Assembly: GCA_018242005.1 (NCBI GenBank)
Contig: JAFECU010000255.1
Span: forward strand, 1-36,654
Length of the DNA: 36,654 nt
Source of the DNA: Pseudomonadota bacterium
GTDB taxonomy: Bacteria; Pseudomonadota; Gammaproteobacteria; Burkholderiales; Burkholderiaceae_C
Direction of reading: 5' to 3'
The notes beneath the pieces were generated by a model. The model did no database searches. It saw only the letters and a list, made by a program, of their open reading frames with translations, and was not told the origin of the DNA. Of the stretch, positions 320-27,779 are shown piece by piece. The translations under genes were made by a program, and so were the position numbers. The first letter of the stretch is position 1. Every line of letters begins with the position of its first letter.

Positions 320-1693
320 GTGATCAACCACGCCCAACTGCTGGCCGACGAGGCCAGGTACTGCTCGTTCGGGGACACCGTCCACTACGTCAATCCGCCC
401 AAGATCTTCACCGGCTGCGAAGGCAGCTACATGTATGACGATGCAGGCACGGCGTATCTGGATCTGCAGATGTGGTACTCGGCCGTGAACTTCGGCTACA
501 AGAACAAGCGGCTCGAAGCCAAGATGATCGAGCAGCTGCAAACGCTGCCCCAGATCGCCAGCCAGTACCTGCACCCGACCAAGATCGAGCTGGCCAGGTT
601 CATCGCCCAGGACGCCGAGAAGAAGTGGGGCCACAAGGGCCGCGTGCACTTCAACGTGGGCGGCGCCCAGGCCATCGAGGATTCGCTGAAGGTCGTGCGC
701 AACGCGAGCGGCGGCAAGAGCCTGATGTTCGCCTTCGAGGGCGGCTACCACGGCCGCACGCTGGGCGCCTCCAGTATCACCAGCAGCTACCGCTACCGCC
801 GCCGCTTCGGCCACTTTGGCGACCGCGCGCAGTTCATTCCCTTCCCCTACCCGTTCCGCCGCCCCAAGGGCATGACGGCCGAGGAGTATTCGGACCAGAT
901 CGTGCGCGAGTTCGCGCGCAAGTTCGAGAACGAATACCACGCCATCTGGGACCCCAAGACCAACCAGTGCGAATACGCGGCCTTCTACGTGGAGCCTATC
1001 CAGGGCACGGGCGGCTACGTGGTGCCGCCGGCGAATTTCTTCAAGGGGCTGAAGAAGGTGCTCGACGACCATGGCATCCTGCTGGTGGTCGACGAGATCC
1101 AGATGGGCTTCTGGCGCACCGGCACGCTGTGGTCGGTGGAGAACTTCGGCGTCAACCCCGACGTGCTGGTCTTCGCCAAGGCGCTGACCAATGGCCTCAA
1201 CGCCCTGTCGGGCCTGTGGGCGCGCGAGGAGCTGATCAACCCCACGGTCTTCCCGCCCGGCTCCACGCATTCCACCTTCGCCTCCAACCCGCTGGGCACG
1301 GCCCTGGGCCTGGAAGTCATGAAGATGACCCACGAGGTGGACTTCGGCCGCCAGGTGCGCGAATCGGGCGCCTACTTCCTCGAAGGCCTCAAGGAGCTGC
1401 AGAAGCGCCACAAGGAAATCGGCGACGTGGACGGCCTGGGCCTGGCGCTGCGCGCCGAGATCTGCACCGAGGACGGCTTCACGCCCAACAAGGCGCTGCT
1501 CGACAAGATGGTGGACATCGGCCTGGAAGGCGGCCTCCAGTACGAGGGCCAGAAACGCGGCCTGGTGCTGGACGTGGGCGGCTACTACAAGAACGTGATC
1601 ACGTTCGCGCCCTCGCTGATGATCACGCGTGCCGAGATCGACGAGGCCATGGTGCTGCTCGATCAGTTGATCACCCGCGCCAAGGCAGCCTGA
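320..1693 (+). CDS. Class III PLP-dependent aminotransferase
   Basis: The product is a 457-residue cytoplasmic fold-type I aminotransferase of class III, the group containing ornithine, GABA and omega-amino-acid transaminases. Visible landmarks are the phosphate-binding GGAQAIE near residue 114, the GGYHGRT turn near 141, the cofactor aspartate in VVDEIQMGF (about D258) and the Schiff-base lysine in FAKALTNG (about K287). The GTG at 320 is chosen because GGAG lies 10 bases upstream (306-309) and the protein then starts just before the conserved N-terminal region; an ATG at 176 would add 48 residues of unlikely sequence. It lies 91 bp after the methionine synthase fragment and 19 bp before a GNAT gene, heading a four-gene plus-strand set. 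The amino donor and acceptor cannot be read from the sequence. The neighbouring arginase-like gene makes a basic or omega-amino substrate plausible, which is inference. Confidence 0.85.
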
Positions 1694-1712
1694 GCGGGGC
1701 AGCCGAGGCGCA

Positions 1713-2771
1713 ATGGCGGCGCAGCGCTTTCACAACCAGCTTGAACCCGGCGGCCTGCTCGCGCAGTTCGCTGCCCAGCCGCCCGAGGGCTTTTCGCCAC
1801 TGCCGGACTGGCCCGCGCCGGCCTTCACGGCGCCCTTTGACCTGCTGACCACGGCCGACGACGCGCTCAAGGCGCGCCTTGTGTCCTTGCCGGGCGGGCG
1901 GTGGCTGGCGCGGCGCCTGCGCTGGCGCACCGATTTCGTCGGCACCACGGTCAGCGAATACGCGGTCCTGCCGCGCATGGCCGCGCCCGCGCTGGCCGCC
2001 ACGCTGCGCGCGCGGGCGGGGCGCACGCGGCTGACCATCGTGAAGGATCTGCCGCAGGACTCGCCGCTGCTGCCCGCCGAGGACAACGCGCACGCGCGGC
2101 AGCTTTGCGACGCACTCGCCGGGGCCGGTTTCATACTTCTCGAAGGCCAGGCCCTGGCCTATGTGCCCATGGATTTCGCCAGCATCGACGAGTATCTGGC
2201 ACGCCTGTCCAGGAACCGGCGCAGCGATCTGCGGCGCAAGCTCAAGAGCCGCACGCGGTTGCACATCACGCGCATCGCCACGGGAGACGACTTTGCCGAT
2301 GAGGAACGCGTCGATGCCTATTACGCGCTGTTCGAGGCGGTCTACGACCAGAGCGAGATCCACTTCGACAAGCTCACGCGCGGCTTCTTCGCGGGTCTGC
2401 TGCGCAGCGGCGGCAACGGTGGCATCGTGTTCGAATACCGCGACGCGGCCAGCGGCGCGCTGCTCGGCTGGAACCTGTGCTTCGAGCACGGCGACAAGCT
2501 GCTCGACAAGTACATAGGCCTGAATTACCCGGCCGCGCGCGAGGCCAACCTGTACTTCGTGAGCTGGATGGTGAACCTCGAATACGCGCTGGAGCGGGGC
2601 CTGTCCCACTACGTGGCCGGCTGGACCGACCCCGAGGTCAAGGCCCAGCTCGGTGCACGTTTCACCCTCACCCGCCACGCCGTCTTCATCCGCAACCCGC
2701 TGCTGCGCGCGCTGGGCCGGCGCCTGGCCGGGCATTTTGAAAGCGACAGCCAATGGAGCGAGCAGAGCTGA
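1713..2771 (+). CDS. FemAB-like GNAT acyltransferase
   Basis: A 352-residue protein whose C-terminal two thirds match the Acetyltransf_6 (FemAB-like, peptidoglycan-biosynthesis-like) branch of the GNAT fold. There is a basic helix RNRRSDLRRKLKSR near residue 170, an aromatic/acidic stretch, and a long central strand-helix region. Family members transfer an aminoacyl or acyl group from a tRNA- or CoA-linked donor onto an amine; which donor is used here is not visible. No signal peptide or membrane segment is seen, so it should be cytoplasmic. ATG 1713 has a GAGG-like site just upstream. The 3' end overlaps the next gene by 19 bp, suggesting translational coupling. With two aminotransferases and a lipid-type methyltransferase nearby, N-acylation of an amine intermediate is a reasonable guess but unproven. 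Confidence 0.72.
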   Translation: MAAQRFHNQLEPGGLLAQFAAQPPEGFSPLPDWPAPAFTAPFDLLTTADDALKARLVSLPGGRWLARRLRWRTDFVGTTVSEYAVLPRMAAPALAATLRARAGRTRLTIVKDLPQDSPLLPAEDNAHARQLCDALAGAGFILLEGQALAYVPMDFASIDEYLARLSRNRRSDLRRKLKSRTRLHITRIATGDDFADEERVDAYYALFEAVYDQSEIHFDKLTRGFFAGLLRSGGNGGIVFEYRDAASGALLGWNLCFEHGDKLLDKYIGLNYPAAREANLYFVSWMVNLEYALERGLSHYVAGWTDPEVKAQLGARFTLTRHAVFIRNPLLRALGRRLAGHFESDSQWSEQS

Positions 2772-3655
2772 ACCCGTGGCGCCCCGTGGTACTGGACCTG
2801 GACGGGTCGGTGGGGCCGCTGCCGGACGAGCTGCGTCTGCCGCTGCGGAATTGGCAGGAGGCGGTGCGCTTTGGCTGCGGCCTCACGCGCTTTGCGCGGT
2901 TCCGCGCTGCGCTGCAGGCCGCATTGCCGCCGCGCCACGGCACGGTGCTCATGGGCAGCGGTGATTTTCATCACCTGTCCTGGCCGCTGATGGAGCGCTG
3001 CATCGCCCGCCAGCGCGAAGCCCTGCGCGTGGTGGTGCTGGACAACCACCCCGACAACATGCGCTTTCCCTGGGGCGTGCACTGCGGCTCCTGGGTGCGG
3101 CGCGTGGCACTGCACCCGGCAGTGGCCCATGTGCATGTGGCGGGCATCACCTCGCAGGACATAGGCCGCGCGCATGCCTGGGAAAACTACCTGGCGCCGC
3201 TGCGTCAGGCCAAGCTGACCTACTGGAGCTGCGGCGTGGACACCGGCTGGGCGCGGCGCCTGGGGCTGCAGCAGGCCTTTCGCGGCTTCGCCAGCGTGGC
3301 GGAACTCACGCAGGCACTGGCGCAGATGCTGCGCGAGCAGCCACAGGCGACCTACCTTAGCATCGACAAGGACGTGTTCGCCCCCGAGGTGGTGCGCACC
3401 AACTGGGACCAGGGCCGGATGCAGGAGGCCGAGGCGCAGGCCATCATCGACGCACTGCGCGGACAGATCGTGGGCAGCGACATCACGGGCGATGTATCGT
3501 CCTGGCGCTACGCCACCTGGTGGAAGCGCCTGCTGTCGGCCGGCGACGGTCAGGACACGCTGATCGACCCGGCCCTGCTTGCCGACTGGCAGGCTGGCCA
3601 GCATGCGCTGAACGCCAGGCTGGTGGCGCAGATACAAGGAGGGAATGAAACATGA
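2753..3655 (+). CDS. Divergent arginase-fold (ureohydrolase-like) protein
   Basis: A 300-residue protein with no obvious close named family, but it carries the three metal-binding blocks of the arginase/agmatinase/deacetylase fold in the right order: GSGDFHH (residues 68-74, in place of GGDHS), LDNHPDN (96-102, in place of DAHxD) and SIDKDV (203-208, in place of SxDxD). All the aspartate and histidine ligands expected for a binuclear Mn site (H73 or H74, D97, H99, D101, D205, D207) are present. Ureohydrolases cleave guanidino groups to urea plus an amine, or hydrolyse related C-N bonds; the substrate here is unknown. The gene overlaps the GNAT gene by 19 bp and shares an ATGA junction with the methyltransferase gene, so it belongs to this operon. 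A non-catalytic or different hydrolytic role cannot be excluded. Confidence 0.65.
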   Translation: MERAELNPWRPVVLDLDGSVGPLPDELRLPLRNWQEAVRFGCGLTRFARFRAALQAALPPRHGTVLMGSGDFHHLSWPLMERCIARQREALRVVVLDNHPDNMRFPWGVHCGSWVRRVALHPAVAHVHVAGITSQDIGRAHAWENYLAPLRQAKLTYWSCGVDTGWARRLGLQQAFRGFASVAELTQALAQMLREQPQATYLSIDKDVFAPEVVRTNWDQGRMQEAEAQAIIDALRGQIVGSDITGDVSSWRYATWWKRLLSAGDGQDTLIDPALLADWQAGQHALNARLVAQIQGGNET

Positions 3656-4902
3656 TCGACGCCTTGCTGGAGCGCCTGCTGCGCCGCGCCTTCACCCCGC
3701 TGGTGCGGCGCGGCCAGCTGGAGGTGGTGCTGCCCGCGGGCCGCGTGCTGCGTTTCGGTGACGACGGCGAACCCCAGGTGCGCATGCGCTTTGCCGACCG
3801 CCAGGCCGCCTTTGCGCTGCTGCGCGACCCGGACCTGAACCTGGGCGAGATGTTCATGCAGGAGCGCCTGGTGGTGGAGCTGGGCACGGTCTACGACCTG
3901 CTCGAACTGCTGCTGCGCGACGCGCGCCATGCCCCCGTGCCCCTGAGCGTGCGCCTGCTCGACGCCTGGCGCATGCGCCTGCGCACCGTCCTGCAGAACA
4001 ACCTGCCGCAGAAGTCGCAGGCCAACGTGGCGCACCATTACGACCTGGACGACCGGCTGTACCGGCTGTTCCTGGACCCGGAGCGGCAATATTCCTGCGC
4101 CTACTTCGAGCGCGGCGACGAGACGCTCGAGCAAGCCCAGCAGGCCAAGATGCGCCATATCACGGCCAAGCTGCTGGTGGAGCGGGGCCAGCGCGTGCTC
4201 GACATTGGCTGCGGCTGGGGCGGCCTGTCTCGCTACCTGGCCGAGGTGGCGGGTGCGGGCCATGTGACGGGCATCACGCTGTCTGCCGAACAGGTCGGCG
4301 TCGCGCGCGAGCGCGCCGCGCTTTCGCCCTGCGCCGAGCGGCTCGAATACCGGCTGGAGGACTACCGCGACACGCGCGGGCCCTTCGACCGCATCGTGTC
4401 GGTGGGCATGTTCGAGCATGTGGGCACGCGTTTTCACGACCGATTCTTCCGACAGTGCCACAACCTGCTGGCCGAGGACGGGGTGATGCTGCTGCACTTC
4501 ATTGGGAACAGCGATGTGCCGGACTTCAACAACCCCTGGATCGAGAAGTACATCTTCCCCGGAGGCCATATTCCCTCGATGTCGGAGTTCACGCCGGCGA
4601 TCGAGCGCGCGGGCCTGGTGATCTGCGACATCGAGGTGCTGCGCCTGCACTACGCGCAGACGCTGCGGCTGTGGCGCGAGCGCTTCCTGCTGCAGCGCGC
4701 CAGGGCGGCGCAACTGTATGACGAACGCTTCTGCCGCATGTGGGAGTTCTATCTGTCGATGTCGGAGACGGCCTTTCGCTACCAGGACATCGCCGTCTTC
4801 CAGCTTCAGCTGGCGCGCCGCCAGGATGCCGTGCCGCTGACGCGCGACTACATCGCCGAGCGCCGCGAAGCGCTGCGCAGGCGGGAGCTGCGGCTCGCCT
4901 GA
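3652..4902 (+). CDS. Cyclopropane-fatty-acyl-phospholipid synthase family SAM methyltransferase
   Basis: A 416-residue protein of the Cfa/mycolic-acid cyclopropane synthase family, slightly longer than E. coli Cfa. It has the family sequence HHYDLDD (128-134), YSCAYF (147-152), the SAM-binding glycine loop VLDIGCGWGG (182-191), and the downstream IFPGGHIPS segment that holds the bicarbonate/active-site histidine in characterised members. These enzymes transfer a methyl group from SAM to the double bond of a phospholipid acyl chain at the inner membrane face; some relatives methylate rather than cyclopropanate. The start ATG overlaps the previous stop (ATGA at 3652-3655). It is the last gene of the plus-strand set; 78 bp separate it from the convergent aminotransferase gene. 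Whether it modifies bulk membrane lipid or a dedicated product of this cluster is open. Confidence 0.85.
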   Translation: MIDALLERLLRRAFTPLVRRGQLEVVLPAGRVLRFGDDGEPQVRMRFADRQAAFALLRDPDLNLGEMFMQERLVVELGTVYDLLELLLRDARHAPVPLSVRLLDAWRMRLRTVLQNNLPQKSQANVAHHYDLDDRLYRLFLDPERQYSCAYFERGDETLEQAQQAKMRHITAKLLVERGQRVLDIGCGWGGLSRYLAEVAGAGHVTGITLSAEQVGVARERAALSPCAERLEYRLEDYRDTRGPFDRIVSVGMFEHVGTRFHDRFFRQCHNLLAEDGVMLLHFIGNSDVPDFNNPWIEKYIFPGGHIPSMSEFTPAIERAGLVICDIEVLRLHYAQTLRLWRERFLLQRARAAQLYDERFCRMWEFYLSMSETAFRYQDIAVFQLQLARRQDAVPLTRDYIAERREALRRRELRLA

Positions 4903-4930
4903 AAACACGGCGCAAGCTCTGTAAGCCCTC

Positions 4931-4958
4931 CGTCATCCCCGCTTTCGCGGGGATGACG
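4931..4958. repeat. 28-bp palindrome, copy 1; likely bidirectional terminator
   Basis: A perfect 12-bp inverted repeat (4931-4942 and 4947-4958) around a 4-base loop lies in the 78-bp gap between two convergent genes. A diverged copy with two stem mismatches lies at 15030-15057. The position suits a bidirectional transcription stop, although no U-tract follows the stem on either strand. Confidence 0.7.
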
Positions 4959-4965
4959 CGTACAC

Positions 4966-5016
4966 ATCAGGCTTTGGCACTTATCCATCAAGCGCTACAT
5001 GCTCCAATATTTGAAG
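4966..5016. repeat. Remnant of dispersed palindromic repeat, overlapping a gene end
   Basis: The stretch starting GCTTTGGCACTTATCCATC and running into CAAGCGCTACATGC resembles the element at 33374-33473 (shared GGCACTT followed by a TCAT/CCAT block) and is markedly more AT-rich than its surroundings. It covers the stop codon and roughly the last ten codons of the minus-strand aminotransferase gene, so the C-terminal residues of that protein (LEHVALDG) appear to be repeat-derived. I recall elements of this look from Comamonadaceae intergenic regions; membership of one family is inferred by eye. Confidence 0.4.
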
Positions 5017-6204
5017 CAAACGCGCGAACCGCTCCTCATCCAGCCACGGGCTGTTGCTGACCGCCACGAGCCGCGCCGCCCAGTCGCGCGCACGCGGCAC
5101 GTCCTCGCCGCGCGCGCCGGCCAGCACATGGTCGTAGCGGCCATAGTCCGGCAGCGCATGGACGAAGGGCAGGGACAGGCCCAGGCCCGCGCCCCAATGC
5201 GCGCGCAGCAGCGCGTCGCGCGCGGCGCCACTGTGAAGGCGCAGCAGCAGCACCGGCCAGGTGCCGCGCGTGCCGGGAACAAGGTCGCCCACCACCTCCA
5301 ATCCGGGTATGGCGGCCAGGCGCGCCATACGCTCGTGTGCCTGGTCGGCCAGTCGCGCCTGAAAACGCCCCAGCCTGTGCAACGCACGCACAGCCACGCG
5401 GCGGCGCCAGGCGCCCAGCGCATGGCGCGGTATGACGTCGCCAAAATCGTCGCCCGCGGCCTGCACCCAGTCGCCGCGCGCCAGCGCCGTGCGCAGCGGC
5501 CGGCCATAGGCCCTGTCCAGGCCACTGGGGCGGTACAGCAGGGCGTAGCCCAGCAGCTCAAGGCTGCGGCGCCATTCCCAGTTGCGGCTCACGCAACGCG
5601 CGGCCTGGCCCGCCTCGCGCAGGGCCTCGCGCAGCGCGGCTTGGCGCGCCAGCAGCACGCCGCCTTCGTAGGTCGTCAGGCCCTTGCCCACGGCCAGGCT
5701 GTAAAAACCCAGGTCGCCCTGCCAGCCCACAGGCTCGCCGTGCACGCGCGCCCCCAGGGCCTGGGCCGAGTCCTCGATGACATAGGCGCCCACGGCACGC
5801 GCGCAGGCCAGGGCCGCGCCCACGTCGGCCACGCGGCCGCACAAATGCGTGGGCAGCAAGGCCAGCGTGCGTTCACTGCACAGCGCTGCCAACTGCTCGG
5901 GATTCATGTCCGGCCGGTCGGGCAGCAGGTCGCACAGGCGCGGCCGCAGGCCGCTTTGCGCCACGGCCAGCGCCACCAGCGGACAGGTGTAGGCGGGGAT
6001 GACGACCTCGGTGCGCGCGGGCGCCAGGCGCCTGAGCGCGGCCAGCGCCACCATCAGGGCCGACGTGCCCGAGCATTCGAGCTGCACGGCCGGCACGCGC
6101 AGCCAGCGGGCAAGGGCGCCGGCCAGATCGTCGTCGCCCCAGGGCCACAGGTCGGCCAGGTGCAGCGGCAGGCCCGCCGTGGGCGGCGGCATATGTTCAG
6201 CCAT
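4981..6204 (-). CDS. DegT/DnrJ/EryC1/StrS-type PLP aminotransferase
   Basis: A 407-residue cytoplasmic PLP enzyme. Family marks are IPAYTCP near residue 69, the cofactor aspartate in IEDSAQALGA (about D145) and the internal-aldimine lysine in AVGKGLTTYEGG (K174), matching the family pattern of a lysine just before a TTxEGG block. Members aminate keto sugars or cyclitols, often nucleotide-linked, with glutamate as donor; a minority act on non-sugar ketones. The ATG at 6204 is preferred over one at 6234 because it gives an 8-bp overlap with the preceding membrane-protein gene, like the other junctions in the chain. It is the last gene of the nine-gene minus-strand run. The C-terminus lies inside a repeat remnant. 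No sugar nucleotide genes are nearby, so an ordinary amino-sugar pathway is not supported. Confidence 0.83.
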   Translation of the reverse strand: MAEHMPPPTAGLPLHLADLWPWGDDDLAGALARWLRVPAVQLECSGTSALMVALAALRRLAPARTEVVIPAYTCPLVALAVAQSGLRPRLCDLLPDRPDMNPEQLAALCSERTLALLPTHLCGRVADVGAALACARAVGAYVIEDSAQALGARVHGEPVGWQGDLGFYSLAVGKGLTTYEGGVLLARQAALREALREAGQAARCVSRNWEWRRSLELLGYALLYRPSGLDRAYGRPLRTALARGDWVQAAGDDFGDVIPRHALGAWRRRVAVRALHRLGRFQARLADQAHERMARLAAIPGLEVVGDLVPGTRGTWPVLLLRLHSGAARDALLRAHWGAGLGLSLPFVHALPDYGRYDHVLAGARGEDVPRARDWAARLVAVSNSPWLDEERFARLLQILEHVALDG

Positions 6205-6676
6205 GGTGCGGCGGCTCGGCCAGATGGGCCGCACCCGCGCTGGCCGAGCCCGCGCCCGGATTGCCGCCCGCGTGGCCGGCGGGGTCGTCGTGCGCGCCGG
6301 CCTCGCTCGTTTCGCTGACGGCCAGGCAGGCGATGCCGGCCACGATGAACAGGCCGCCTATGAGCTGCGGCGCGCCGATCTGTTCGTTGAAGAACCAGTG
6401 CGAAAGCGCCATCACCGACAGGATCTCCAGGTGCGAGGCGGCAAACGCCGGGCCTATGGGGGCGTGGCGCAGCAGCGTCATCCATGAGAAAAACGCGCCT
6501 ATGTAGCCGATGAAGGCGCCGTAGATCCAGGGCTGGCCGAACACGCGCAGCAGCCAGGCGCCGGAAAATTCCAGCGGCAGCGCCGTGTTGCCGGCCTGCT
6601 TGAAGCTGAGCTGGGCCAGGGTGTCGAAGGCCATCAGCACCAGAAAGCCGATGAGGTAGAAGCGCTTCATCTTCAT
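6197..6676 (-). CDS. Small EmrE/EamA-like membrane protein (first of a pair)
   Basis: A 159-residue protein of the drug/metabolite transporter superfamily. It has four hydrophobic segments, approximately residues 6-22, 45-65, 78-98 and 102-122, with a conserved-looking glutamate in SHLEILSVMALS and the SFKQAG motif of short EamA-type proteins. Roughly the last 35 residues are a hydrophilic Gly/Ala/His-rich tail. Such half-size transporters work as dimers; ArnE and ArnF, which flip aminoarabinose-lipid across the inner membrane, have this size and are encoded side by side. The ATG at 6676 lies one base after the stop of the neighbouring DMT gene; a second ATG two codons later is possible. Co-occurrence with a second, dissimilar small DMT gene suggests a heterodimer that flips or exports an intermediate of this cluster (inference). 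Confidence 0.75.
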   Translation of the reverse strand: MKMKRFYLIGFLVLMAFDTLAQLSFKQAGNTALPLEFSGAWLLRVFGQPWIYGAFIGYIGAFFSWMTLLRHAPIGPAFAASHLEILSVMALSHWFFNEQIGAPQLIGGLFIVAGIACLAVSETSEAGAHDDPAGHAGGNPGAGSASAGAAHLAEPPHHG

Positions 6677-6677
6677 G

Positions 6678-7046
6678 TCAGTGCAGCCCGACGATGGCCA
6701 CGCCGATGGACACCAGGACGATGCCCGCGACGCGCATGGGCGCCAGCCGCTCCTTGAACAGGACGCGACCGAGCACCATGATGGCCACGATATTGATGGA
6801 GCCCAGCAGCACACCGTCCGACAGCGGCACCAGCGACAGAAAGGCCAGCCACAGCAGAAACTCGGCCACATAGCAGGCCATGCCGGCCCAGATCCAGGGC
6901 CGCGCCAGCATGAAGCGCCAGCGCGCCATGCCATCGAGCGCGCCGGGCTCGCTGGCCGCCGCCTTGAAGGCCAGTTGGCCACCGCTGTCCACCAGCACGT
7001 TGAGCACCCACAGCGTGACGGCCAGGGGCGAGAGCTCGCTACCCAT
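6678..7046 (-). CDS. Small EmrE/EamA-like membrane protein (second of a pair)
   Basis: A 122-residue, almost entirely hydrophobic protein with four predicted membrane segments and the EamA/EmrE-type pattern: an N-terminal helix ending in SGGQLAFKAA, a PLSDGVLLGSINIVAIMVLG stretch resembling the third helix, and a final helix AGIVLVSIGVAIVGL. It is clearly related to, but not a duplicate of, the neighbouring 159-residue protein. The start codon overlaps the upstream hydrolase gene by 8 bp. Half-size members of this superfamily need a partner, so the adjacent gene pair probably encodes the two halves of one inner-membrane transporter or flippase. The substrate is unknown. Confidence 0.77.
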   Translation of the reverse strand: MGSELSPLAVTLWVLNVLVDSGGQLAFKAAASEPGALDGMARWRFMLARPWIWAGMACYVAEFLLWLAFLSLVPLSDGVLLGSINIVAIMVLGRVLFKERLAPMRVAGIVLVSIGVAIVGLH

Positions 7047-7929: not shown

Positions 7930-8621
7930 GCCGGCGCCTCCAGGCCCAGCAGCACGCCTTCGAGCAGGTCCCTGGCCTGGGTGAAGTCGGTGAATGGCGC
8001 GTGGGAGATGCCATGCTGCTCGCAGTGCGCGATGAGCTTGTACTTGGCGAGCACAAAGTCGGCCCGGCCCGAGACACAGAAGTCCGAGGTGCTGTCGCCC
8101 ACGTAGAGCACGCGCCCGGTCGGGCCCTGGGCCTCTGCCAGGCGCTCGCATTTGCAGTTGCCGCTGGCGCGCTCGCAACGTGGGCTGGCCCAGGGGAAGT
8201 CCAGGCGCCAGCTGCGCTCGCCGGTGTGCGCCAGGCGGTTGGCAACCACGGGCAGGTGGCCCAGACCGTGGCGGCGCAGCACATGGCGTATGCAGTAGTC
8301 CAGCCCGTCGCTGACCACCTGGACCTGCACGCCATGCTCCTGCGCCAGCTGCACGAAGCCCGCGAAACCAGGGTCGATGGCGATCTCGTCCAAATGTGCC
8401 TGCAGCTCGGCTTCGCTCATGTCCAGCAGCGCCACCTGGCCCTTCATGCATTCGCGCGAGCCGATCTCGCCGCGCTCCCACGCGTCTTCGAGCTCCCGCC
8501 AACCGGGCTGGCCGAAGCGGGTGAGCAGGGTGTCGGTCACGTCCAGCAGGCTGATGGTGCCATCGAAGTCGCTCTGTATGGTCCAGCCGCTTGCGTCCAG
8601 GAAAGTGATGCGTTTATTCAT
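7926..8621 (-). CDS. HAD-IB phosphatase (MtnX/PHOSPHO1-like)
   Basis: A 231-residue HAD-superfamily phosphatase. Motif I is SDFDGT (D18 nucleophile, D20 acid/base), motif II is VSDGLDY (S102) and motif IV is YVGDSTSD (171-178). A helical cap between motifs I and II fits subclass IB, which includes phosphoserine phosphatase, MtnX and the PHOSPHO1 phosphocholine/phosphoethanolamine phosphatases. A cysteine cluster, C147, C154 and C156 around K155, sits where MtnX and PHOSPHO1 relatives carry a Cys/Lys substrate-loop motif. That makes a small phospho-alcohol or phospho-keto substrate more likely than serine phosphate. It overlaps both neighbours by a few bases. The precise substrate cannot be read. 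Confidence 0.78.
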   Translation of the reverse strand: MNKRITFLDASGWTIQSDFDGTISLLDVTDTLLTRFGQPGWRELEDAWERGEIGSRECMKGQVALLDMSEAELQAHLDEIAIDPGFAGFVQLAQEHGVQVQVVSDGLDYCIRHVLRRHGLGHLPVVANRLAHTGERSWRLDFPWASPRCERASGNCKCERLAEAQGPTGRVLYVGDSTSDFCVSGRADFVLAKYKLIAHCEQHGISHAPFTDFTQARDLLEGVLLGLEAPA

Positions 8622-9537
8622 GGAAAGTCACCCTCACGTTCTGCCCCACGCGCGCGCCCTGCGGCACCTCGTCGAAGGCCAGCAGGCAGTCCACCACGCG
8701 CACGGGGCCGCGCAGCGCGTCGTCCTGCAGCCGGGCCTGGCCATACACGGGGCTGATGCGGAGCACCCTGGCATCCGGCAGGGCCTGCTGCGCACCGCCG
8801 GCGTCGCTGTCAGCGACAACGCTGGCGCGCATGCCCACGCGCACGGCGTTGACAAAGCTTTCGTTGAGCTCGGCGCGCACGAGCAGCGGCCGCGCCGGCA
8901 GCAGCACCACGGCGGTAGCGCCGCTGCTCACGGCCGTGCCCGGCTGCGCCGCCACGCGCACGGCCACGCCGGCCTCGGGCGCGCGCAACTCCAGACGGCG
9001 CTGCTGCGTCTGCTGCTGTTGCAGCTTGGCCTGGGACACACGCACCTCGGACTGGGCCAGATCGGCCTCGGCCTGGGCGTCCTGAAGGGCCTGCGCGGCC
9101 TCGTCCCGGTTCTGGGGGTCGGCCGCGCCCTCGCGCACCGCGGCCTGCCAGCGGTCAAGCGCCCGGCGCAGCGCGGGCAGGCGCGCCGCCTTGGCCTTGG
9201 CTCGGGCCTGGGCCAGCTGCAGCTCGGAGCGCGCCACGGCCTGCTCGGCCTGCAGGTCGTCGCCCACCAGGCGCAAGAGCGGCTGCCCCTTGTTCACCTG
9301 CTGCCCTTCCTTGACCAGGACCTGCTGAACCACGCCGGACGTGGCCGGGGCCAGTTCCAGCAGGCCACCCTCAACCTCGACCTTGCCGCGCGCCACGGCG
9401 ACGGGGGTCCTGTGCTGCGCCGCGGCGGCGGGAGTCTGTACCTGTGCATGCGCGTCGCGCTGCGGCGAGCAGCCGGCCAGGGCCACGCCCAGCAGCAGCG
9501 CCGCGGCCAGGGACAGGAGTTGCGTTTTGTGCTTCAT
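8614..9537 (-). CDS. HlyD-type membrane-fusion lipoprotein
   Basis: A 307-residue periplasmic adaptor. The N-terminus is a lipoprotein signal with lipobox LAGC and acylated C23. It is followed by a biotinyl/lipoyl half-motif (SGVVQQVLVKEGQQVNKGQPL), a long glutamine- and alanine-rich coiled-coil hairpin from about residue 98 to 185, then the second half-motif and a beta-barrel segment. This is the MacA/DevB-type layout linking an inner-membrane ABC permease to an outer-membrane channel. It lies directly upstream (transcriptionally) of the phosphatase and directly downstream of its ATPase, with an ATGA junction. The hairpin is shorter than in some RND adaptors. Family is clear; cargo is not. 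Confidence 0.85.
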   Translation of the reverse strand: MKHKTQLLSLAAALLLGVALAGCSPQRDAHAQVQTPAAAAQHRTPVAVARGKVEVEGGLLELAPATSGVVQQVLVKEGQQVNKGQPLLRLVGDDLQAEQAVARSELQLAQARAKAKAARLPALRRALDRWQAAVREGAADPQNRDEAAQALQDAQAEADLAQSEVRVSQAKLQQQQTQQRRLELRAPEAGVAVRVAAQPGTAVSSGATAVVLLPARPLLVRAELNESFVNAVRVGMRASVVADSDAGGAQQALPDARVLRISPVYGQARLQDDALRGPVRVVDCLLAFDEVPQGARVGQNVRVTFHE

Positions 9538-10268
9538 TCTTGGTTGACCGTGTTGGGGCGCCAGTCGTTGCGGATGGCACCGTCCTCCATGCCCAGCACG
9601 CGGTCGGCATGGCGCACCAGGCGCGGGTCGTGGCTGACGCACAGCACCGTCGTGCCATGCGCGCGCGCCGCGCGGTGCAGGATGTCGATCACGCGCTGGC
9701 CGCTCTCGGCGTCCAGCGCGCTCGTGGGCTCGTCGGCGAACAGCAGCTGCGGCTCCTTGGCCATGGCGCGGGCAATGGCCACGCGCTGGCGCTCGCCGCC
9801 GGAGAGCTCGGCTGGGCGCATGTGGCTGCGGTGGCTCATGTCCACCTCGTCGAGTGCTCGCTCGGCGCGGTGCAGGCTCTCGGCATTCTTGAGCCCCATA
9901 TAGCCCAGCGGCAGCTGCACCTGCTCCAGCGCCGTGAGCGCGGGAAACAGATTGAAGCCCTGGAACACGAAGCCCGTGTGGCGCAGGCGGAAATGCTCCA
10001 GCGCGCGTGCGCCCATGGCGCCCAGGTCTTCGCCCAGGGCCATGGCCTGGCCCTCGTCGGGGTGCTGCAGGCCCGACAGCAGCGACAAGAGCGTGCTCTT
10101 GCCACAGCCCGAGGGGCCGGAGATCAGGCTCAGCTCGCCCGGGTACAGCGCAATCGACAGGCCCTGCAGCACTTGCACGCGCACATGGCCCGACAGAAAG
10201 GACTTGGAGAGGCGCACGGCCTGCAGGCTGGGCTGGCCGAGGGGGGTGTCGGGCATGCGCGCGGTCAT
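9534..10268 (-). CDS. ABC transporter ATPase (MacB/LolD/DevA-like)
   Basis: A 244-residue nucleotide-binding protein with Walker A GPSGCGKST (51-59), a Q-loop in FVFQGFNLFPALTA (about 100-113), signature LSGGERQR (155-162) and Walker B LLFADEPTSALD (175-186), followed by the H-loop SHD. The FQxFNLxPxLTA Q-loop and overall length are those of the LolD/MacB/DevA group, whose permeases work as mechanotransmitters rather than classic substrate channels. The ATG at 10268 lies 5 bp after the stop of the permease gene and the stop overlaps the adaptor gene start, so ATPase and permease should be made in balanced amounts. Confidence 0.92.
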   Translation of the reverse strand: MTARMPDTPLGQPSLQAVRLSKSFLSGHVRVQVLQGLSIALYPGELSLISGPSGCGKSTLLSLLSGLQHPDEGQAMALGEDLGAMGARALEHFRLRHTGFVFQGFNLFPALTALEQVQLPLGYMGLKNAESLHRAERALDEVDMSHRSHMRPAELSGGERQRVAIARAMAKEPQLLFADEPTSALDAESGQRVIDILHRAARAHGTTVLCVSHDPRLVRHADRVLGMEDGAIRNDWRPNTVNQE

Positions 10269-10273
10269 GGCAT

Positions 10274-11419
10274 TCAACGCAGCAGGGCCGCCGGATCGGC
10301 GCGCAGCACACCGCGCACCGCGCCCAGGCCCGACAGCAGCGACAACACCGCCACCAGCACGCCGCAGGCCGCCACGGCGGCAACATTCAAGGACACGGGG
10401 ACGCGGTAGACCGCGGCCAGGCCCAGCAGGGCGGCGCTGGCCAGGGCCGCGAGCACAAAGCCCGACAGGCCGATCCAGAAGGACTGTTCGACCACCACGC
10501 GCCCCAGGGCCGCTCGGCTCACGCCCAGGGCGTTGAGCGTGGCGTATTCGCGCGCCGAGCCCACGACCACGGTGCGCAGCGACTGACTGGTGACCACGGC
10601 GCCGACGATGCACACCACAATGGCCATGAACAGCACGCCCGCGCCGGCGCCCGTGTCCAGCATCCAGTAGAGCTGAGAGCGGTGGGCGAAGTCGCGCGCC
10701 GTCCATACCTCATAGGGGCCGAAGGCGCTGTGCTGCGGCTCCTGCAGGCGCTGGCGTACCACCTGGGGATCGACGCCGGCGCGCACGGCAGCCACGAAAT
10801 AGGTGGGACCCGACTGGGCGGCGGCGCCCGCGATCTCGCGCGCCGTCTCCAGCGAGGCCAGCACATTGGCCCCGCCCAGGCCGCGCAGGCCGTCCACCAC
10901 GGCCACCACCTGCACGCGATGGCCGTTGATCCAGGCCTGGCCACCCTCGCGCGCGCCCAGGCTGGACAGGTCGGCTCTATCCACGATCACGGCGCCGGGC
11001 TCGCGCAGGCGTTCGCGCTGCCAGCCGCTCAGGGCGTGGGAGAACATCAGGGCGCCGGCGCCCGTGCGTATGCCCGAGAGGTAGATGGACACGCCGCCGC
11101 CGCCCACATCCGCGGCCGAGGTGCGCCAGTCGCCGTCCACCCACTGATAGGGCTCGACGGCCGTGATGTCAGGGTCCATGCGCAGGCGCATCTCGACATC
11201 GGCGCCGATGCCGCGGCCGAAGTTCACGCTCTGCGTGCCCGGAAAACCGATCCACAGATCGGCGCCCGAGGCCGTGACGTACAGCGCCGCGGCGCCAAAG
11301 ATGCCCAGCACCAGCGCCGCCTGCATGGCCAGCAGCACGCCCGAGAAGCCCACGGCGAAGACGCTGGGCACGAAGCGGCGCCATTCGTAGACCAGGGTCT
11401 TGCGCGCCAGCGCGATCAC
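10274..11419 (-). CDS. FtsX/MacB/DevC-like ABC permease
   Basis: A 381-residue inner-membrane protein. A first membrane helix at about 19-48 is followed by a periplasmic domain of some 200 residues. Three closely spaced helices follow, at about 256-284, 311-336 and 342-368, ending in the FtsX-type tail (VRGVLRADPAALLR). This topology, one helix, a large periplasmic domain and three helices, is diagnostic of the FtsX-like permease family used by MacAB, LolCDE and cyanobacterial DevBCA. The permease and ATPase are on separate chains, as in DevCA rather than MacB. DevBCA-type systems export glycolipids and MacAB-type systems export peptides, lipopeptides and macrolides. The stop of the outer-membrane factor gene overlaps this start. 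Confidence 0.87.
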   Translation of the reverse strand: MIALARKTLVYEWRRFVPSVFAVGFSGVLLAMQAALVLGIFGAAALYVTASGADLWIGFPGTQSVNFGRGIGADVEMRLRMDPDITAVEPYQWVDGDWRTSAADVGGGGVSIYLSGIRTGAGALMFSHALSGWQRERLREPGAVIVDRADLSSLGAREGGQAWINGHRVQVVAVVDGLRGLGGANVLASLETAREIAGAAAQSGPTYFVAAVRAGVDPQVVRQRLQEPQHSAFGPYEVWTARDFAHRSQLYWMLDTGAGAGVLFMAIVVCIVGAVVTSQSLRTVVVGSAREYATLNALGVSRAALGRVVVEQSFWIGLSGFVLAALASAALLGLAAVYRVPVSLNVAAVAACGVLVAVLSLLSGLGAVRGVLRADPAALLR

Positions 11420-12924
11420 GATGCGCCTCCCGTCGTTGGCGCAGCCAGCTCGGGGGCCAGCGGCGCGCCGCCCAGCGCCTTGTAGAGCGACACATAGGCC
11501 AGGGCCCGTGCCGCACGCGCCGTGGCGACCTCACCCTGCGCGCGCAGCAGCGCGCGCTGATCGGACAGGGCCGACCAGTCGCTGCCCAGGCCCAGGCGCT
11601 GGCGCACGGCCTGGGCCGCGCCGCGCTGGCGCAGCTGATCCTGCGCGCCGGCCAGGGCCTGCTCGCGCGCCCGCTGAGCCATGAGCGCGGCCAGTGATCC
11701 CTCGACCTCGGCCAACCCCTCCAGGATGCTCTGGCGGTAGGCCAGGATGGCGCCCTGCAGCGCCTCTTCGCCGGCGTCGGCCTGGGCACGGCGGCGCCCC
11801 CAGTCGAACAGCGGCACGTCGATCAGCGGGCCCAGCAGCGGCAGGTCGTTGGAGCGGGCGCGGTAGTTCTGCGTCAGGTTGTACGAGTACAGCAGCGAGC
11901 CCGCGAGCTGAAAGCGCGGGTACAGGGCCGCGCGTGCCAGGCCGGCCTCGGCCGCGCGCTGCTCCACCTGGGCCTCGGCCAGCCGGATATCGGGGCGCGA
12001 GCGCAGCAGCTGCGCCGGCAAATCGCCCAGGGCCAGGCCATCGAGCTCGGGCAGGGTGGCTGCCGCATCGTCCTGCAGCCAGGCGGGGTCGGGCCGGTCG
12101 CGCCCCAGCAGCAGCGCCAGCCCATGGGCGGCGCGCGCCTGGGCCTCGGTGAGCTGCGCGGCCGCGGCGGCGCTGGTCTGCGCCTGGGCCTGCAGTTGGC
12201 GCAGCTCGTCCTGCGAGCCCAGGCGCTGCTCGCGGCGCACCTCGGCCAGCTGCTGCGCGCGCGCGTCCAGGCGCGCCAGGTCGGCCAGCAGTGCGCGCTG
12301 GCGCTGGGCCAGGCGGATATCGAGATAGCGGTGCACCACGTCGGCCACCAGGGCCACGCGCGCGGCCTGCAGGCGCGCGCCGGCATCGAGCAGGTCGGCG
12401 CGGGCGGCGCGCGCGCCGGACTCGGAGGCGCCGAACAGGCCCAGATCCCAGACCATGTCGATGCTGGCCTGGAAAAATGAATCGATGGCCGCAATGTCCT
12501 GCAGCGTGCGCACGCTGGCCGTGACCACGGGCCGATAGGCACTGGCGGCCGTGGCCGACAGCAGGCGCTGGCGCCGCAGCCGCGTCACGGCCTGGGCGAC
12601 GTCAAGGTTGTGCGCCAGAGCCTCGTCCACCAGGGCATCGAGGCGCGCGTCGCCCCAGGGCTTCCACCAGGCACGCATGTCCACGGGCGCGGCGCCAGGA
12701 GTCACCGGGGGCGCGGGCTGGGTCCATTGCGCGGGCGTGGAGCGGTCGAGTTTGACCTCCACGGGCGCTGCGCAGCCCGCCAGCCACAGGGCCGCGCCCA
12801 GGCATGCCAGGGGTGCGGTGGCGATAGATTTCACGCGGAAGTGGTGCAAGTCAGGGCGGCGCATGCGGGTGCCGCTCTTGGCGCTGCGCCACTGCGGCTC
12901 GGGAAAGAGACGGAAAGCGGACAT
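11416..12924 (-). CDS. NodT-type outer-membrane efflux lipoprotein
   Basis: A 502-residue outer-membrane factor (TolC/OprM family). A lipoprotein signal ends in lipobox LAGC (WLAGCAAP). Two related halves follow, with long alanine/glutamine-rich helices and the characteristic PLLGPLIDVPLFDWGRR strand near the middle of the second half. It forms the trimeric exit duct for the exporter encoded by the next three genes. ATG 12924 is preferred because GAAGG lies about 7 bases upstream, although it gives an unusually long 47-residue leader; an ATG at 12864 gives a more normal signal peptide but has no good ribosome site. This is the first gene of the nine-gene chain and faces the divergent regulator gene. 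Confidence 0.86.
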   Translation of the reverse strand: MSAFRLFPEPQWRSAKSGTRMRRPDLHHFRVKSIATAPLACLGAALWLAGCAAPVEVKLDRSTPAQWTQPAPPVTPGAAPVDMRAWWKPWGDARLDALVDEALAHNLDVAQAVTRLRRQRLLSATAASAYRPVVTASVRTLQDIAAIDSFFQASIDMVWDLGLFGASESGARAARADLLDAGARLQAARVALVADVVHRYLDIRLAQRQRALLADLARLDARAQQLAEVRREQRLGSQDELRQLQAQAQTSAAAAAQLTEAQARAAHGLALLLGRDRPDPAWLQDDAAATLPELDGLALGDLPAQLLRSRPDIRLAEAQVEQRAAEAGLARAALYPRFQLAGSLLYSYNLTQNYRARSNDLPLLGPLIDVPLFDWGRRRAQADAGEEALQGAILAYRQSILEGLAEVEGSLAALMAQRAREQALAGAQDQLRQRGAAQAVRQRLGLGSDWSALSDQRALLRAQGEVATARAARALAYVSLYKALGGAPLAPELAAPTTGGAS

Positions 12925-12977
12925 GGGTCGCCTTCGAAGCAGGCTATTGCAACGCCCCAAGGTGGCGCATCGGTGCA

Positions 12978-13020
12978 CGCAATGTGGAGAATGTATGGAG
13001 GCCCGCGCCAAGTCCATAAT
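12978..13020 (+). promoter_or_regulatory. Candidate response-regulator operator and promoter in divergent gap
   Basis: In the 149-bp gap between the divergent exporter chain and regulator gene, TGGAG occurs twice in tandem 11 bp apart (12985-12989 and 12996-13000), each preceded by AATGT. OmpR-class regulators typically bind such one-turn tandem repeats. On the other strand this reads CTCCA-N6-CTCCA within ATTCTCCACATTG, reminiscent of the BaeR box. A -10-like CATAAT lies at 13015-13020 with no good -35, and the repeats sit where an activator would cover the -35. Read by eye only. Confidence 0.4.
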
Positions 13021-13073
13021 TTCCGTCGGCGCGGCCGTCCGGTCGCGCACTCTTTTGACGCAGTTCCCCCAGC

Positions 13074-13796
13074 ATGTCCGCATCCGCCCCCAGCGCCGCA
13101 ACTCCGCTCGTGCTCGTCGTCGAGGACGAGCCGGCCATTGCCAGCATTCTCTGCGCCTACCTGGAGCGCGAGGGCCTGCGCGCGCGCACCGCGGCCGATG
13201 GAAACCAGGCCTTGCAGCTGTTTCGCCAGCTGCGCCCGGACCTGGTGCTGCTGGACATCCACCTGCCCGAGGTGGACGGCATCGACGTTCTGCGCACGAT
13301 TCGCGACGAGGGCCAGACGCCGGTGATCATGGTCACGGCGCTGGCCGACGATATGGACAAGCTGCTGGCGCTGCGCCTGGGCGCGGACGACTATGTGGTC
13401 AAGCCCTTCAACCCGCCCGAGGTGGTGCCGCGCGTGCGCGCCGTGCTGCGGCGCACGCAGCTGAGAGCCCACAGTGCGCCCGCACCGATACGCGTGGGCG
13501 CCATAGAGATCGACGCCAGCGCCCACAGCGCCTGCGTCTACGACGGCGAAGGCCTGGCGCAGGCGCTGCCGCTGACGCTGACCGAATTTCGCCTGCTCAG
13601 TTGCCTGGCGGCGCAGCCACGGCGCTGCTTCTCGCGCGGCTATCTGATCGAGCAATGCCTGCCCGAGAGCGAGGCCCTGGAGCGCGTCATCGACTCGCAC
13701 ATGTCCAAGCTGCGGCGCAAGCTGCAGTTGGCCGGGCAGGACGGCTTGATAGAAACCGTGCGCGGCATTGGTTACCGGCTATGGCCCGCCGCCTGA
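13074..13796 (+). CDS. OmpR/PhoB-family response regulator
   Basis: A 240-residue two-domain regulator. The receiver domain has the acidic pair E17/D18, the phospho-acceptor D61 in LLDIHLPEVDG, the switch threonine in MVTALAD and the lysine in YVVKPF. The C-terminal winged helix (about 140-236) includes LTLTEFRLL, the recognition helix ERVIDSHMSKLRRKL and the wing IETVRGIGYRL. It resembles BaeR/AdeR-type regulators that control efflux operons. ATG 13074 begins the usual short leader before the first beta strand. It overlaps the kinase gene by 16 bp and is divergent from the exporter operon, the natural target by position. Confidence 0.93.
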   Translation: MSASAPSAATPLVLVVEDEPAIASILCAYLEREGLRARTAADGNQALQLFRQLRPDLVLLDIHLPEVDGIDVLRTIRDEGQTPVIMVTALADDMDKLLALRLGADDYVVKPFNPPEVVPRVRAVLRRTQLRAHSAPAPIRVGAIEIDASAHSACVYDGEGLAQALPLTLTEFRLLSCLAAQPRRCFSRGYLIEQCLPESEALERVIDSHMSKLRRKLQLAGQDGLIETVRGIGYRLWPAA

Positions 13797-14959
13797 ACCA
13801 CACCATCGATCGCATCTGGGTGCGCTTCGGCCTGTGGATCGCCGCGACGTCGCTGTGCTCCATCGCACTCATGGCGGCGTCCATGTTGCTGTTTTCCGAG
13901 CTGCGGTACCGCGACTTCTACAACGGCCTGCCCCTGGCCATTCGGGAAGAACTCGACGAGCTGCGCGCCAACGCCCAGGACAACAGCCCGCGCGTGCGCC
14001 AGATCTACAGCCAGTACGGCAATGATGACCTGCTGTTCGGCGAACGCTGGCCGCTTGGCATAGGCCTGGCGCTGTGCCTGCCCTTCGGCCTGGCCGTGGG
14101 CTTTTGGGTGTCGCGGCGCATCACGCGGCCGCTGACCTCCATGGTCGAGGCGGCGCAGCGCGTGGGCGAGGGCGACTACAGCGCGCGGGCCCTGGCGGGC
14201 AAGACGCATGGGGAGATGATCGAGATGATTGGCGCGTTCAATCACATGATCGACTCCGTGCAGGCGCTGGAGGAAGAGCGCCGCGCCACGGCGGCCTCGA
14301 TCTCGCATGAGCTGCGCACACCGCTGGCCGTGCTGCAGGCGCGGCTGAGCGCGCTGTGTGACGGCGTGATTGCGGCCGATGCGCATGAATTCCAGACCCT
14401 GCTGGCCCAGGTGGAGCACCTGGGGCGCATGGTGGCGGACCTGCACACGCTGTCCATGGCCGACGCGGGGCAGTTGTCGCTGCACCTGCAGCGCCTGGAC
14501 CTGAACGCGCTGGCCGCCGAAACCGTGGAACAGCTGCGCCCGCAGCTACAGAAAAGCGGCATGGCCGTGGATCTGCGGCTGCCGCTGGAAGAGGGGCTGG
14601 CCGACATCCGCGCCGACCGCGACCGCATGCGCCAGATCATCTCGAATCTCGTGGGCAACGCCATACGCCACGCGGCGCAGGGCGGCTGGCTGGGCCTGGA
14701 GATTCGCGCCGAGGCGTCGGATGACGGGCGCACCTGGGTCTTGCTGTGCATCAGCGACGCCGGCCCTGGCCTGCCCGACGAGGTGCGCAGGCAGCCGTTC
14801 CAGCGCTTTGCCCAGGCCCCGGGCAAGCGGCGACGAGAGGGTTCGGGCCTGGGCCTGTCCATCGTGCGCGCCCTCACCGAGGCGCAGGGTGGTACGGTAC
14901 GATTCGACACCTCCGAGCGCGGCGGCACGCGCTTCACGCTGCGCTTTGCCCAGGCATAG
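13781..14959 (+). CDS. Sensor histidine kinase
   Basis: A 392-residue inner-membrane kinase: first membrane helix at about 16-39, a small periplasmic loop of roughly 50 residues, second helix at about 91-110, a HAMP linker (111-163), the dimerisation domain with H176 in SISHELRTPL, and an ATPase domain with N box ISNLVGNAIRHA, DAGPGL and GSGLGLSIV. The short sensor loop suggests detection at or within the membrane rather than of a soluble ligand by a folded periplasmic domain. The start overlaps the response regulator stop by 16 bp, so the pair is co-translated. It most resembles BaeS-type kinases that answer envelope stress. Confidence 0.92.
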   Translation: MARRLNHTIDRIWVRFGLWIAATSLCSIALMAASMLLFSELRYRDFYNGLPLAIREELDELRANAQDNSPRVRQIYSQYGNDDLLFGERWPLGIGLALCLPFGLAVGFWVSRRITRPLTSMVEAAQRVGEGDYSARALAGKTHGEMIEMIGAFNHMIDSVQALEEERRATAASISHELRTPLAVLQARLSALCDGVIAADAHEFQTLLAQVEHLGRMVADLHTLSMADAGQLSLHLQRLDLNALAAETVEQLRPQLQKSGMAVDLRLPLEEGLADIRADRDRMRQIISNLVGNAIRHAAQGGWLGLEIRAEASDDGRTWVLLCISDAGPGLPDEVRRQPFQRFAQAPGKRRREGSGLGLSIVRALTEAQGGTVRFDTSERGGTRFTLRFAQA

Positions 14960-15057: not shown

Positions 15058-15184
15058 GCCTCAGCGTTCATCGCGTGCCGTGGGAAGACGAATCAGTAGG
15101 TATCGCTGCCCGGGCCTTTTTTTGACTGTCACAAAGTTCTGGCACTGTTGCGGCCGCGCGCCGCCGCGCCGCCCCGAAATTTTC

Positions 15185-16525: not shown

Positions 16526-16552
16526 TCCCGCCTGCATGGCCCCTGGTATACA
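16522..16552 (+). promoter_or_regulatory. Weak candidate promoter/operator before Mg2+ ATPase gene
   Basis: TTGATC (16522-16527) and TATACA (16547-16552) are spaced by 19 bp. CTGGTATACAAG (16543-16554) is also nearly palindromic about GTATAC, a form seen in GntR-type operators. Either reading is tentative. The 84-bp gap has no long leader like the Mg2+-sensing leader of enterobacterial mgtA. Confidence 0.25.
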
Positions 16553-16609
16553 AGTCAAAATTCGAGCGCCCTGACCGGTTCGGCAAGAGGCGTTCAGGAG
16601 AGCGCTGCC

Positions 16610-19330: not shown

Positions 19331-19385
19331 ACAAAGGGAAGACTAGACTTTGCGCCCATAGGAACGCAGGCAAGGCAGGCGCACC

Positions 19386-21059: not shown

Positions 21060-21074
21060 GCAAAGGAATTACAG

Positions 21075-21135
21075 CAAAAACAGGCTTTGACACAGGCGTA
21101 TAAATAGCAGGCTGCTCATATATTCATAGTAAACA
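21075..21135. repeat. Remnant of dispersed repeat between genes
   Basis: An AT-rich stretch (AAACAGGCTTTGACACAGGC, then TATAAATAGCAGGCTGCTC and TATATTCATAG) fills the 78-bp gap. The ACAGG-type half and the AGCAGGCTGCTC segment resemble one arm of the palindromic element at 33374-33473. The reading of it as a decayed copy is by eye. It also supplies the upstream DNA of the threonine ammonia-lyase gene, which has no evident ribosome site. Confidence 0.35.
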
Positions 21136-21137
21136 TC

Positions 21138-22337: not shown

Positions 22338-22424
22338 TGCGGGTTAGGCCCGTGCGCCAGACCGCACGCGGTCGCTACACTGGGGCCATCTTCGCCATCC
22401 ATAACGTACAGAGGAGACCGCCAC

Positions 22425-27776: not shown

Positions 27777-27779
27777 TTT

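Follow-up and report, generated by a model that had tools for sequence, protein, structure and literature searches.

The window analysed here is a whole contig of 36,654 nucleotides (C172, GC 68.6%) from the draft genome of a Burkholderiales bacterium (3.96 Mb in 313 contigs, 91% complete). Positions 320-14959 hold a gene set that encodes two aminotransferases (AT3 and DegT), a FemAB-type protein, a ureohydrolase (ARG), a pair of small membrane proteins, an exporter and a two-component pair. It is laid out as two convergent operons (plus strand, AT3 to CFA; minus strand, DegT to OEP) and the divergent pair RR-HK. Families were assigned by hidden Markov model (HMM) search against Pfam and NCBIfam. 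All genes of the set are open, with start codons and single stops verified in the sequence, and the gene content and layout given in the initial annotation stand. The features are:

320-1693, plus strand: AT3, class III pyridoxal-phosphate (PLP) aminotransferase (PF00202, E 3.7e-71)
1713-2771, plus strand: FemAB, tandem-GNAT protein (FemAB_like, E 4.9e-10; also Acetyltransf_6)
2753-3655, plus strand: ARG, ureohydrolase of arginase fold (Arginase family, E 9.9e-7)
3652-4902, plus strand: CFA, cyclopropane-fatty-acid-synthase-type methyltransferase (PF02353, CMAS, E 2.3e-89)
4932-4957, no strand: hairpin (inverted repeat) between the convergent operons, candidate two-way terminator
4981-6204, minus strand: DegT, DegT/DnrJ/EryC1/StrS-type aminotransferase (PF01041, E 9.9e-35)
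6197-6676, minus strand: Eam2, small EamA/SMR-type membrane protein (weak ArnF match)
6678-7046, minus strand: Eam1, small EamA/SMR-type membrane protein (weak ArnE match)
7039-7929, minus strand: Est, S33 alpha/beta hydrolase, monoacylglycerol-lipase-like (PF12146, E 8.4e-23)
7926-8621, minus strand: HAD, MtnX-like HAD-IB phosphatase (PF12710, E 2.5e-14; TIGR01489 above cut-off)
8614-9537, minus strand: MFP, membrane-fusion lipoprotein (HlyD families, E 4.1e-13; LAGC lipobox by eye)
9534-10268, minus strand: ABC ATPase, DevA-like (TIGR02982 best NCBIfam match, below cut-off)
10274-11419, minus strand: FtsX-type permease, DevC-like (PF02687)
11416-12864, minus strand: OEP, NodT-like outer-membrane channel lipoprotein (PF02321; TIGR01845, E 1.8e-59, just below cut-off)
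13074-13796, plus strand: RR, OmpR-class response regulator, AdeR-like (HMM family match)
13781-14959, plus strand: HK, HAMP histidine kinase, BaeS/AdeS-like (HMM family match)

The nine minus-strand genes (4981-12864) overlap or lie no more than 5 nt from their neighbours, so that the chain from DegT to OEP is, judging by its spacing, very likely a single operon. A promoter scan of 12800-13120 returned no sigma-70-like site and one terminator-like site, and was given no weight. The start of the window, upstream of AT3, is presumably the tail of metH, identified by eye.

AT3 is the best-conserved protein of the set, with 63-96% identity in the relatives listed except for 54% in G228, and none of the 25 NCBIfam models listed for it scored above cut-off. 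At L178:8912-11232, a 54% identical AT3 relative adjoins a 314-residue sulfotransferase-like protein (identified by eye), and HAD, Est and ARG are unseen in that stretch. HAD resembles the MtnX structure 2fea, and Est matches the monoacylglycerol lipase structures 4lhe and 3rli over residues 28-129 (E about 1e-32). In DegT, K184 and D155, to which PLP roles are ascribed, are invariant in 24 sequences; its best solved relatives work on cyclitols and sugars, with ArnB among the weaker ones.

For the small pair, EamA was matched at E 1.3e-6 on a longer frame including Eam2 (just over the cut-off) and at 5.4e-6 by Eam1 (just under it), and the Arn flippase models stayed below their curated scores (ArnE 27.1 of 92 bits; ArnF 21.2 and 23.9 of 99 bits). 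The exporter subunits are all below the curated NCBIfam scores as well (DevA 217.2 of 295.8, DevC 45 of 290.35 and DevB 60.9 of 129 bits). DevC is the sole NCBIfam match of the FtsX permease at E<=1e-5, and DevB is one of several matches of the MFP adaptor. The initial annotation had called the exporter DevBCA/MacAB-like, and DevBCA is the nearer of these two types by the DevA, DevC and DevB matches. The regulators RR and HK are nearest envelope and efflux regulators.

Structure model comparison revealed that FemAB has the predicted tandem GNAT fold of the Fem/MprF ligase group, nearest the aminoacyl-tRNA-dependent ligases Sbb17, FemX and MprF and closest to the streptothricin-type ligases Sbb17/Sba18 of antibiotic pathways. 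By sequence, the FemAB profile gave no match among solved structures at E 0.1. We describe FemAB as structurally nearest the aminoacyl-tRNA-dependent group, of which it would be a putative ligase. A ceramide-synthase-like reading, favoured at first, was lowered after this comparison of predicted folds; ceramide synthase is unnamed among the 50 fold matches listed for FemAB, which excludes nothing. The structure model of ARG falls within the ureohydrolases, nearest proclavaminate amidino hydrolase, likewise of an antibiotic pathway. Its residues H73, D97, H99, D101, D205 and D207 are invariant in 30 sequences, and we take them, from a weak alignment and the motifs of such enzymes, to be the ureohydrolase metal ligands (His, DxHxD, DxD).

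ARG was found in 16 of 200 genomes of the family, the source genome included. Among the other 15 (L021-L035), AT3-FemAB-ARG faces the whole or part of the DegT-to-OEP chain in ten (L021-L024, L027-L029 and L031-L033) and stands by itself in L025, L026 and L030, with a DegT fragment at the contig edge of L025. L035 has ARG-FemAB with a fragment of a 46% identical DegT, and L034, so far as visible, holds all of these genes but DegT and the small pair, in another order. When named genomes were scanned with the ARG alignment, at least 546 of 588 pattern stretches, of which one genome may yield several, were confirmed to encode ARG, and these comprise at least 80 distinct loci. The locus counts below refer to the best 80 of the at least 546 stretches, mostly from Comamonadaceae and Rhodanobacteraceae; some share contigs with the family loci (e.g. 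L036 and L021). FemAB adjoins ARG in all 80.

The remaining genes were counted in the 60 loci with flanks of 9 kb or more on either side, the other 20 (<9 kb on a side) being excluded. The identity limits were 50% for RR, 38% for HK, 50% for ABC, 60% for AT3, 55% for CFA and 30% for the others; since the chain may run out of view at its far end, the counts are lower bounds. FemAB occurs in 60 loci, AT3 in 56, HAD in 52, Eam1, Eam2 and Est in 51 each, DegT in 48, MFP and ABC in 47 each, FtsX in 45, OEP in 44, RR in 21, CFA in 12 and HK in 11, and the complete set of 12 core genes is present in 38. CFA, the lipid-type methyltransferase of the initial annotation, thus keeps its CMAS assignment but is only an optional member.

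Nine family genomes, picked from the 15 because the chain was visible, were viewed over a longer stretch. In all nine, DegT, Eam2, Eam1, Est, HAD, MFP, ABC, FtsX, OEP, RR and HK follow in the same order, with RR adjoining OEP each time; the shorter view had made the two-component pair seem optional in the 60 loci. In the window, the flank at 15080-24781 encodes an OprB porin, a P-type cation ATPase, an AidB-like acyl-CoA dehydrogenase, a PLP-dependent enzyme with an ACT domain (PALP) and a GTP-type phosphoenolpyruvate carboxykinase (PEPCK). These outward genes are rare in the nine genomes (OprB 1/9, P-type ATPase 1/9, AidB 2/9, PALP 2/9 and PEPCK 1/9), all of them in the same-genus genome or G147, and a metH tail lies near ARG in five of the 80 loci. 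The constancy of the inner genes and the rarity of their surroundings indicate a conserved unit from AT3 to HK rather than general synteny, and on the same grounds (the 60-locus counts and the nine-genome view) we rejected a chance neighbourhood.

AT3 and ARG are found in the same genomes also where they are not linked. AT3 (E <= 1e-140) is present in 17 of the 200 family genomes, covering all 16 with ARG, and G018 has AT3 only. A draw of 398 genomes from the phylum gave ARG in 17 and AT3 in 25, with both in 16, ARG only in one (a weak match, E 7e-5) and AT3 only in nine; stretches were taken from eight of these nine, G346 being left out. Fisher's test yields p = 1e-22 for the family and 2e-21 for the phylum, for genomes that are not phylogenetically independent. 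Genome-wide searches for DegT, AT3 and FtsX located parts absent at the ARG locus elsewhere in the same genome, DegT in 9 of 12 genomes, AT3 in 4 of 4 and FtsX in 5 of 5; in the Dyella genomes L100 and L108, AT3 and FtsX are about 5 kb or less apart. Distance correlations ranged from 0.50 to 0.97 and had no unlinked control, so they were not counted. Altogether, the 60 loci and the nine genomes bear out the check proposed in the initial annotation, that ARG, DegT and the small pair occur together across genera, and the nine also show that the set's own two-component pair is conserved. The recovery of most missing parts in the same genome agrees with a single system as opposed to scattered genes.

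Many genera of the Burkholderiales and Rhodanobacteraceae carry the set (among them Comamonas, Delftia, Variovorax, Rhodanobacter and Luteibacter), as do Xanthomonas and Pseudomonas, and it is found rearranged in Rhizobium, Agrobacterium, Roseomonas and Bartonella. Its content is kept while the gene order depends on the lineage. In most Rhodanobacteraceae loci HAD lies at the AT3 end, as displayed by a separate neighbourhood listing (identity limits RR 55, HK 40, ABC 50, AT3 45 and CFA 40%), and several of these loci have a less similar regulator and kinase after OEP. The modules stand apart in L039, L062-L064, L078, L100, L108 and L114, among others, and the Pseudomonas-like G431 has these genes on two contigs, the first with FemAB-ARG and the small pair, the second with FemAB'-Est-AT3-HAD. 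The remotest relatives sampled have only HAD-AT3-Est of the set. In L179 and L184 it is alone or accompanied by regulators; in L180-L182 a ketoacyl synthase and a carrier protein are present, and in L183 the synthase is at the contig edge. ARG was not found in the genomes of L179-L184. DegT is unseen next to the sets of Rhizobium, Agrobacterium and the Pseudomonas type. Losses in some lineages affect DegT, the FemAB-ureohydrolase pair and the exporter. At L177 (G202), AT3, the small pair, Est, HAD, the exporter, RR and HK stand together and ARG was not found in the genome; the presence of these genes without ARG suggests that FemAB and ARG form a tailoring pair.

In the ARG tree, Pseudomonas asuensis and Herminiimonas cluster together; the plasmid copy from Bartonella joins G591, which shares its family with the rhizobium-like G394, and the two lie next to the Pseudomonas-like G431. 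These groupings across orders suggest transfer between orders, weakened by the long branches. Plasmid copies of the set exist among the relatives; ARG had no match in phages, and no viral contig was confirmed.

Genes for acyl chains recur beside the relatives. A ketoacyl synthase is found in 14 of 64 clustered loci and an acyl carrier protein (ACP) in 10, mainly in Rhodanobacteraceae and also in Xanthomonas sacchari. The synthase genes, mostly with ACP, adjoin AT3 or FemAB in L034, several of L069-L111, L116, L146 and L180-L183, and G075 has the synthase as well (65%). We sought a dedicated ketoacyl synthase in the genome of the window and rejected the only copies found, at 40% and 37%, as housekeeping. 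The Rhizobium set is flanked by Cfa and a desaturase, and the Bartonella set by MBOAT. Mainly on account of these acyl-chain genes, together with the lipase-like Est, we favour a product that bears an acyl chain. MipA/OmpV-type genes also recur beside the set, in clusters of 8 and 4 loci, for example:

L076:4155-4952: MipA/OmpV-type gene, by Pfam
L120:15600-16424: MipA/OmpV-type gene, as annotated
L143:7623-8561: MipA/OmpV-type gene, by clustering only

Comparison with known systems revealed partial likenesses. In DevBCA, which exports heterocyst glycolipids, DevA is the best match of the ATPase, DevC the only match of the permease and DevB one among others for the adaptor; by contrast, the subunits here are under the curated cut-offs, have a NodT-type channel gene of their own and are linked to aminotransferases. 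The Arn system, which places 4-amino-4-deoxy-L-arabinose on lipid A, shares a DegT aminotransferase, paired small EmrE-like proteins and two-component control, whereas the present set has a ureohydrolase in place of ArnD, and its DegT is dispensable. No ArnA, ArnC, ArnT or sugar-nucleotide gene is among the matches for the genes at 320-14959, the part of the genome searched for ArnA, ArnC and ArnT. The MprF, Fem and VlmA ligases have the tandem GNAT fold predicted for FemAB, whose use of tRNA is putative; FemAB differs in having no fused flippase, no tRNA synthetase gene in its set and a ureohydrolase partner in all 80 closest loci. The OlsBA aminolipids (ornithine, glutamine and glycine lipids) are amine-bearing acyl lipids (PMC11631085), as the product here would be, but no OlsB- or OlsA-type acyltransferase is named among the family matches of this set. 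The Caulobacter ceramide pathway combines amine formation, a carrier protein and an N-acyltransferase (PMC11324152), whereas our set has AT3 and no serine palmitoyltransferase, reductase or acyl-ACP synthetase. In the rhizobitoxine pathway, the N-terminal domain of RtxA converts dihydroxyacetone phosphate to serinol, a conversion in which a phosphorylated carbonyl is aminated and the phosphate removed (PMC3222319); such chemistry would be feasible for AT3 and HAD.

As the initial annotation had noted, family scans of the set gave no polyketide synthase, nonribosomal peptide synthetase or sugar-nucleotide gene; of modular synthases, only a free ketoacyl synthase and carrier occur in some relatives. 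An anti-phage defence system was considered and rejected, the ABC ATPase being the only match among 10 proteins scanned against defence models. By the tests made, the whole set is outside the DevBCA, Arn, OlsBA and nonribosomal peptide or polyketide systems, and its parts are known families. No curated model that we encountered describes it, and none of the papers listed by searches of open-licence PubMed Central texts appeared, by title and opening of the abstract, to do so.

We propose, with confidence about evenly poised, that this conserved modular system makes an amine-bearing, acyl-chain compound and moves it out through the envelope. Starting from the families present, their recurrence across genera and orders, the co-occurrence of AT3 and ARG and the folds predicted for FemAB and ARG, we infer the following steps. 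AT3 would aminate and the MtnX-like HAD dephosphorylate a precursor to give an amine-bearing head group or an aminated acyl intermediate, assisted in some lineages by the dedicated ketoacyl synthase and carrier protein, and the lipase-like Est may trim an acyl ester. FemAB would then put an amino acid (or an acyl group) on the amine, after which ARG would cleave a C-N bond of the added part; some relatives are without this pair. DegT could supply a further amine in most lineages. Eam1 and Eam2 would flip the product across the inner membrane in the manner of ArnE/F. In the sets of beta- and gammaproteobacteria, its export or its placement in the outer membrane would fall to a DevBCA-type complex and the NodT channel, presumably under control of the envelope-stress-type pair RR-HK.

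Several points weigh against this proposal. The FemAB fold also occurs, at lower Z (12-14), in CoA-dependent tandem GNATs and N-myristoyltransferases, a kinship by which acyl-CoA or acyl-ACP stays a possible donor. In arginases a glutamate holds the guanidinium, and its position aligns with glycine G246 in ARG, with an acid at 247, in a weak sequence alignment. The best solved relatives of DegT are cyclitol and sugar enzymes, whose substrates are otherwise unhinted among the genes of the set, and the aminotransferase of the Roseomonas set is a different one, 24% identical to AT3. DegT was not found in 3 of the 12 genomes whose ARG locus lacks a part, nor the FtsX permease in four Pseudomonas- or rhizobium-like genomes with a rearranged set, so neither is universal. 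The genome counts lack phylogenetic independence. As there is no glycosyltransferase or lipid-head-group enzyme among the genes of the set, a membrane lipid is not compelled.

A narrower version, in which tRNA-dependent synthesis leads to a lipid or other compound carrying ornithine, appears distinctly unlikely. Here AT3 and HAD would make the acceptor, FemAB would add arginine from Arg-tRNA and ARG would remove urea to leave ornithine, for which we know of no tRNA, before the ArnE/F-like pair flips and the DevBCA-type pump exports the product. An Arn-like envelope modification is unlikely too: DegT (as ArnB) would aminate a carrier-linked group, FemAB would add and ARG remove a protecting acyl (as the ArnA formyltransferase and ArnD), and the flipped product would give a positive surface charge against cationic peptides. 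The weak ArnE and ArnF matches of the small pair, ArnB among the weaker DegT relatives, the joint presence of FemAB and ARG in all 80 loci, the envelope/efflux-type regulators and the MipA/OmpV-type genes beside several relatives speak for it. The genes scanned include, however, no ArnC-, ArnT- or sugar-nucleotide-type gene, DegT is dispensable and nearer other sugar/cyclitol aminotransferases than ArnB, and ARG has the ureohydrolase fold, unlike ArnD, whose fold is another. A secreted natural product (peptide-like, an antibiotic or a siderophore), made by FemAB-type ligation with unusual amines from DegT and AT3 and pumped out by the DevBCA/NodT exporter, seems unlikely as well, if less so. 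It would fit the antibiotic-pathway proteins nearest FemAB (Sbb17/Sba18) and ARG (proclavaminate amidino hydrolase), the patchy occurrence (16/200 family genomes) and the plasmid copies; yet acyl-chain genes recur, no other peptide ligase is among the genes scanned, and the stretches of distant relatives hold HAD-AT3-Est without FemAB.

Two or three unrelated neighbouring functions (AT3-FemAB-ARG, a small-transporter/esterase operon, and an efflux pump with regulators) could account for the genomes with separate modules. However, the modules come together across orders in varied order while outward neighbours do not, and split modules are mostly co-present, which largely refutes this reading and leaves it very unlikely. 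Least probable to us is an efflux and envelope-stress locus with enzymes for the detoxification of an amine or guanidine compound that enters the cell: the AdeR/BaeS-type regulators, the small multidrug-resistance-type proteins and the ureohydrolase fold would suit it, but relatives have genes for an acyl carrier and a ketoacyl synthase at the same place, which indicates synthesis, and Fem-type ligation would be unusual for detoxification.

If the proposed synthesis and export of an amine-bearing acyl compound is true, Gram-negative envelopes gain such an exported compound, and a Fem/MprF-like ligase paired with a ureohydrolase would be a new pairing; the ornithine route, if true, would add a new class, an exported cationic lipid-like metabolite across alpha-, beta- and gammaproteobacteria. 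The set is without the polyketide, peptide-synthase and sugar-nucleotide genes sought by cluster finders. Either way, it is a defined gene set with clear knock-out targets, widespread in water, soil and plant bacteria.

Further along the window, a 156-residue reading frame at 24939-25409 has high GC at third codon positions and no Pfam match at E 0.01. The region 25501-36617 is ordinary and includes a LysR regulator, a universal stress protein, an alpha/beta hydrolase and a flavin reductase, as well as MinE/MinD-like/MinC, CDP-alcohol phosphatidyltransferase and acyl-CoA dehydrogenase-type genes.

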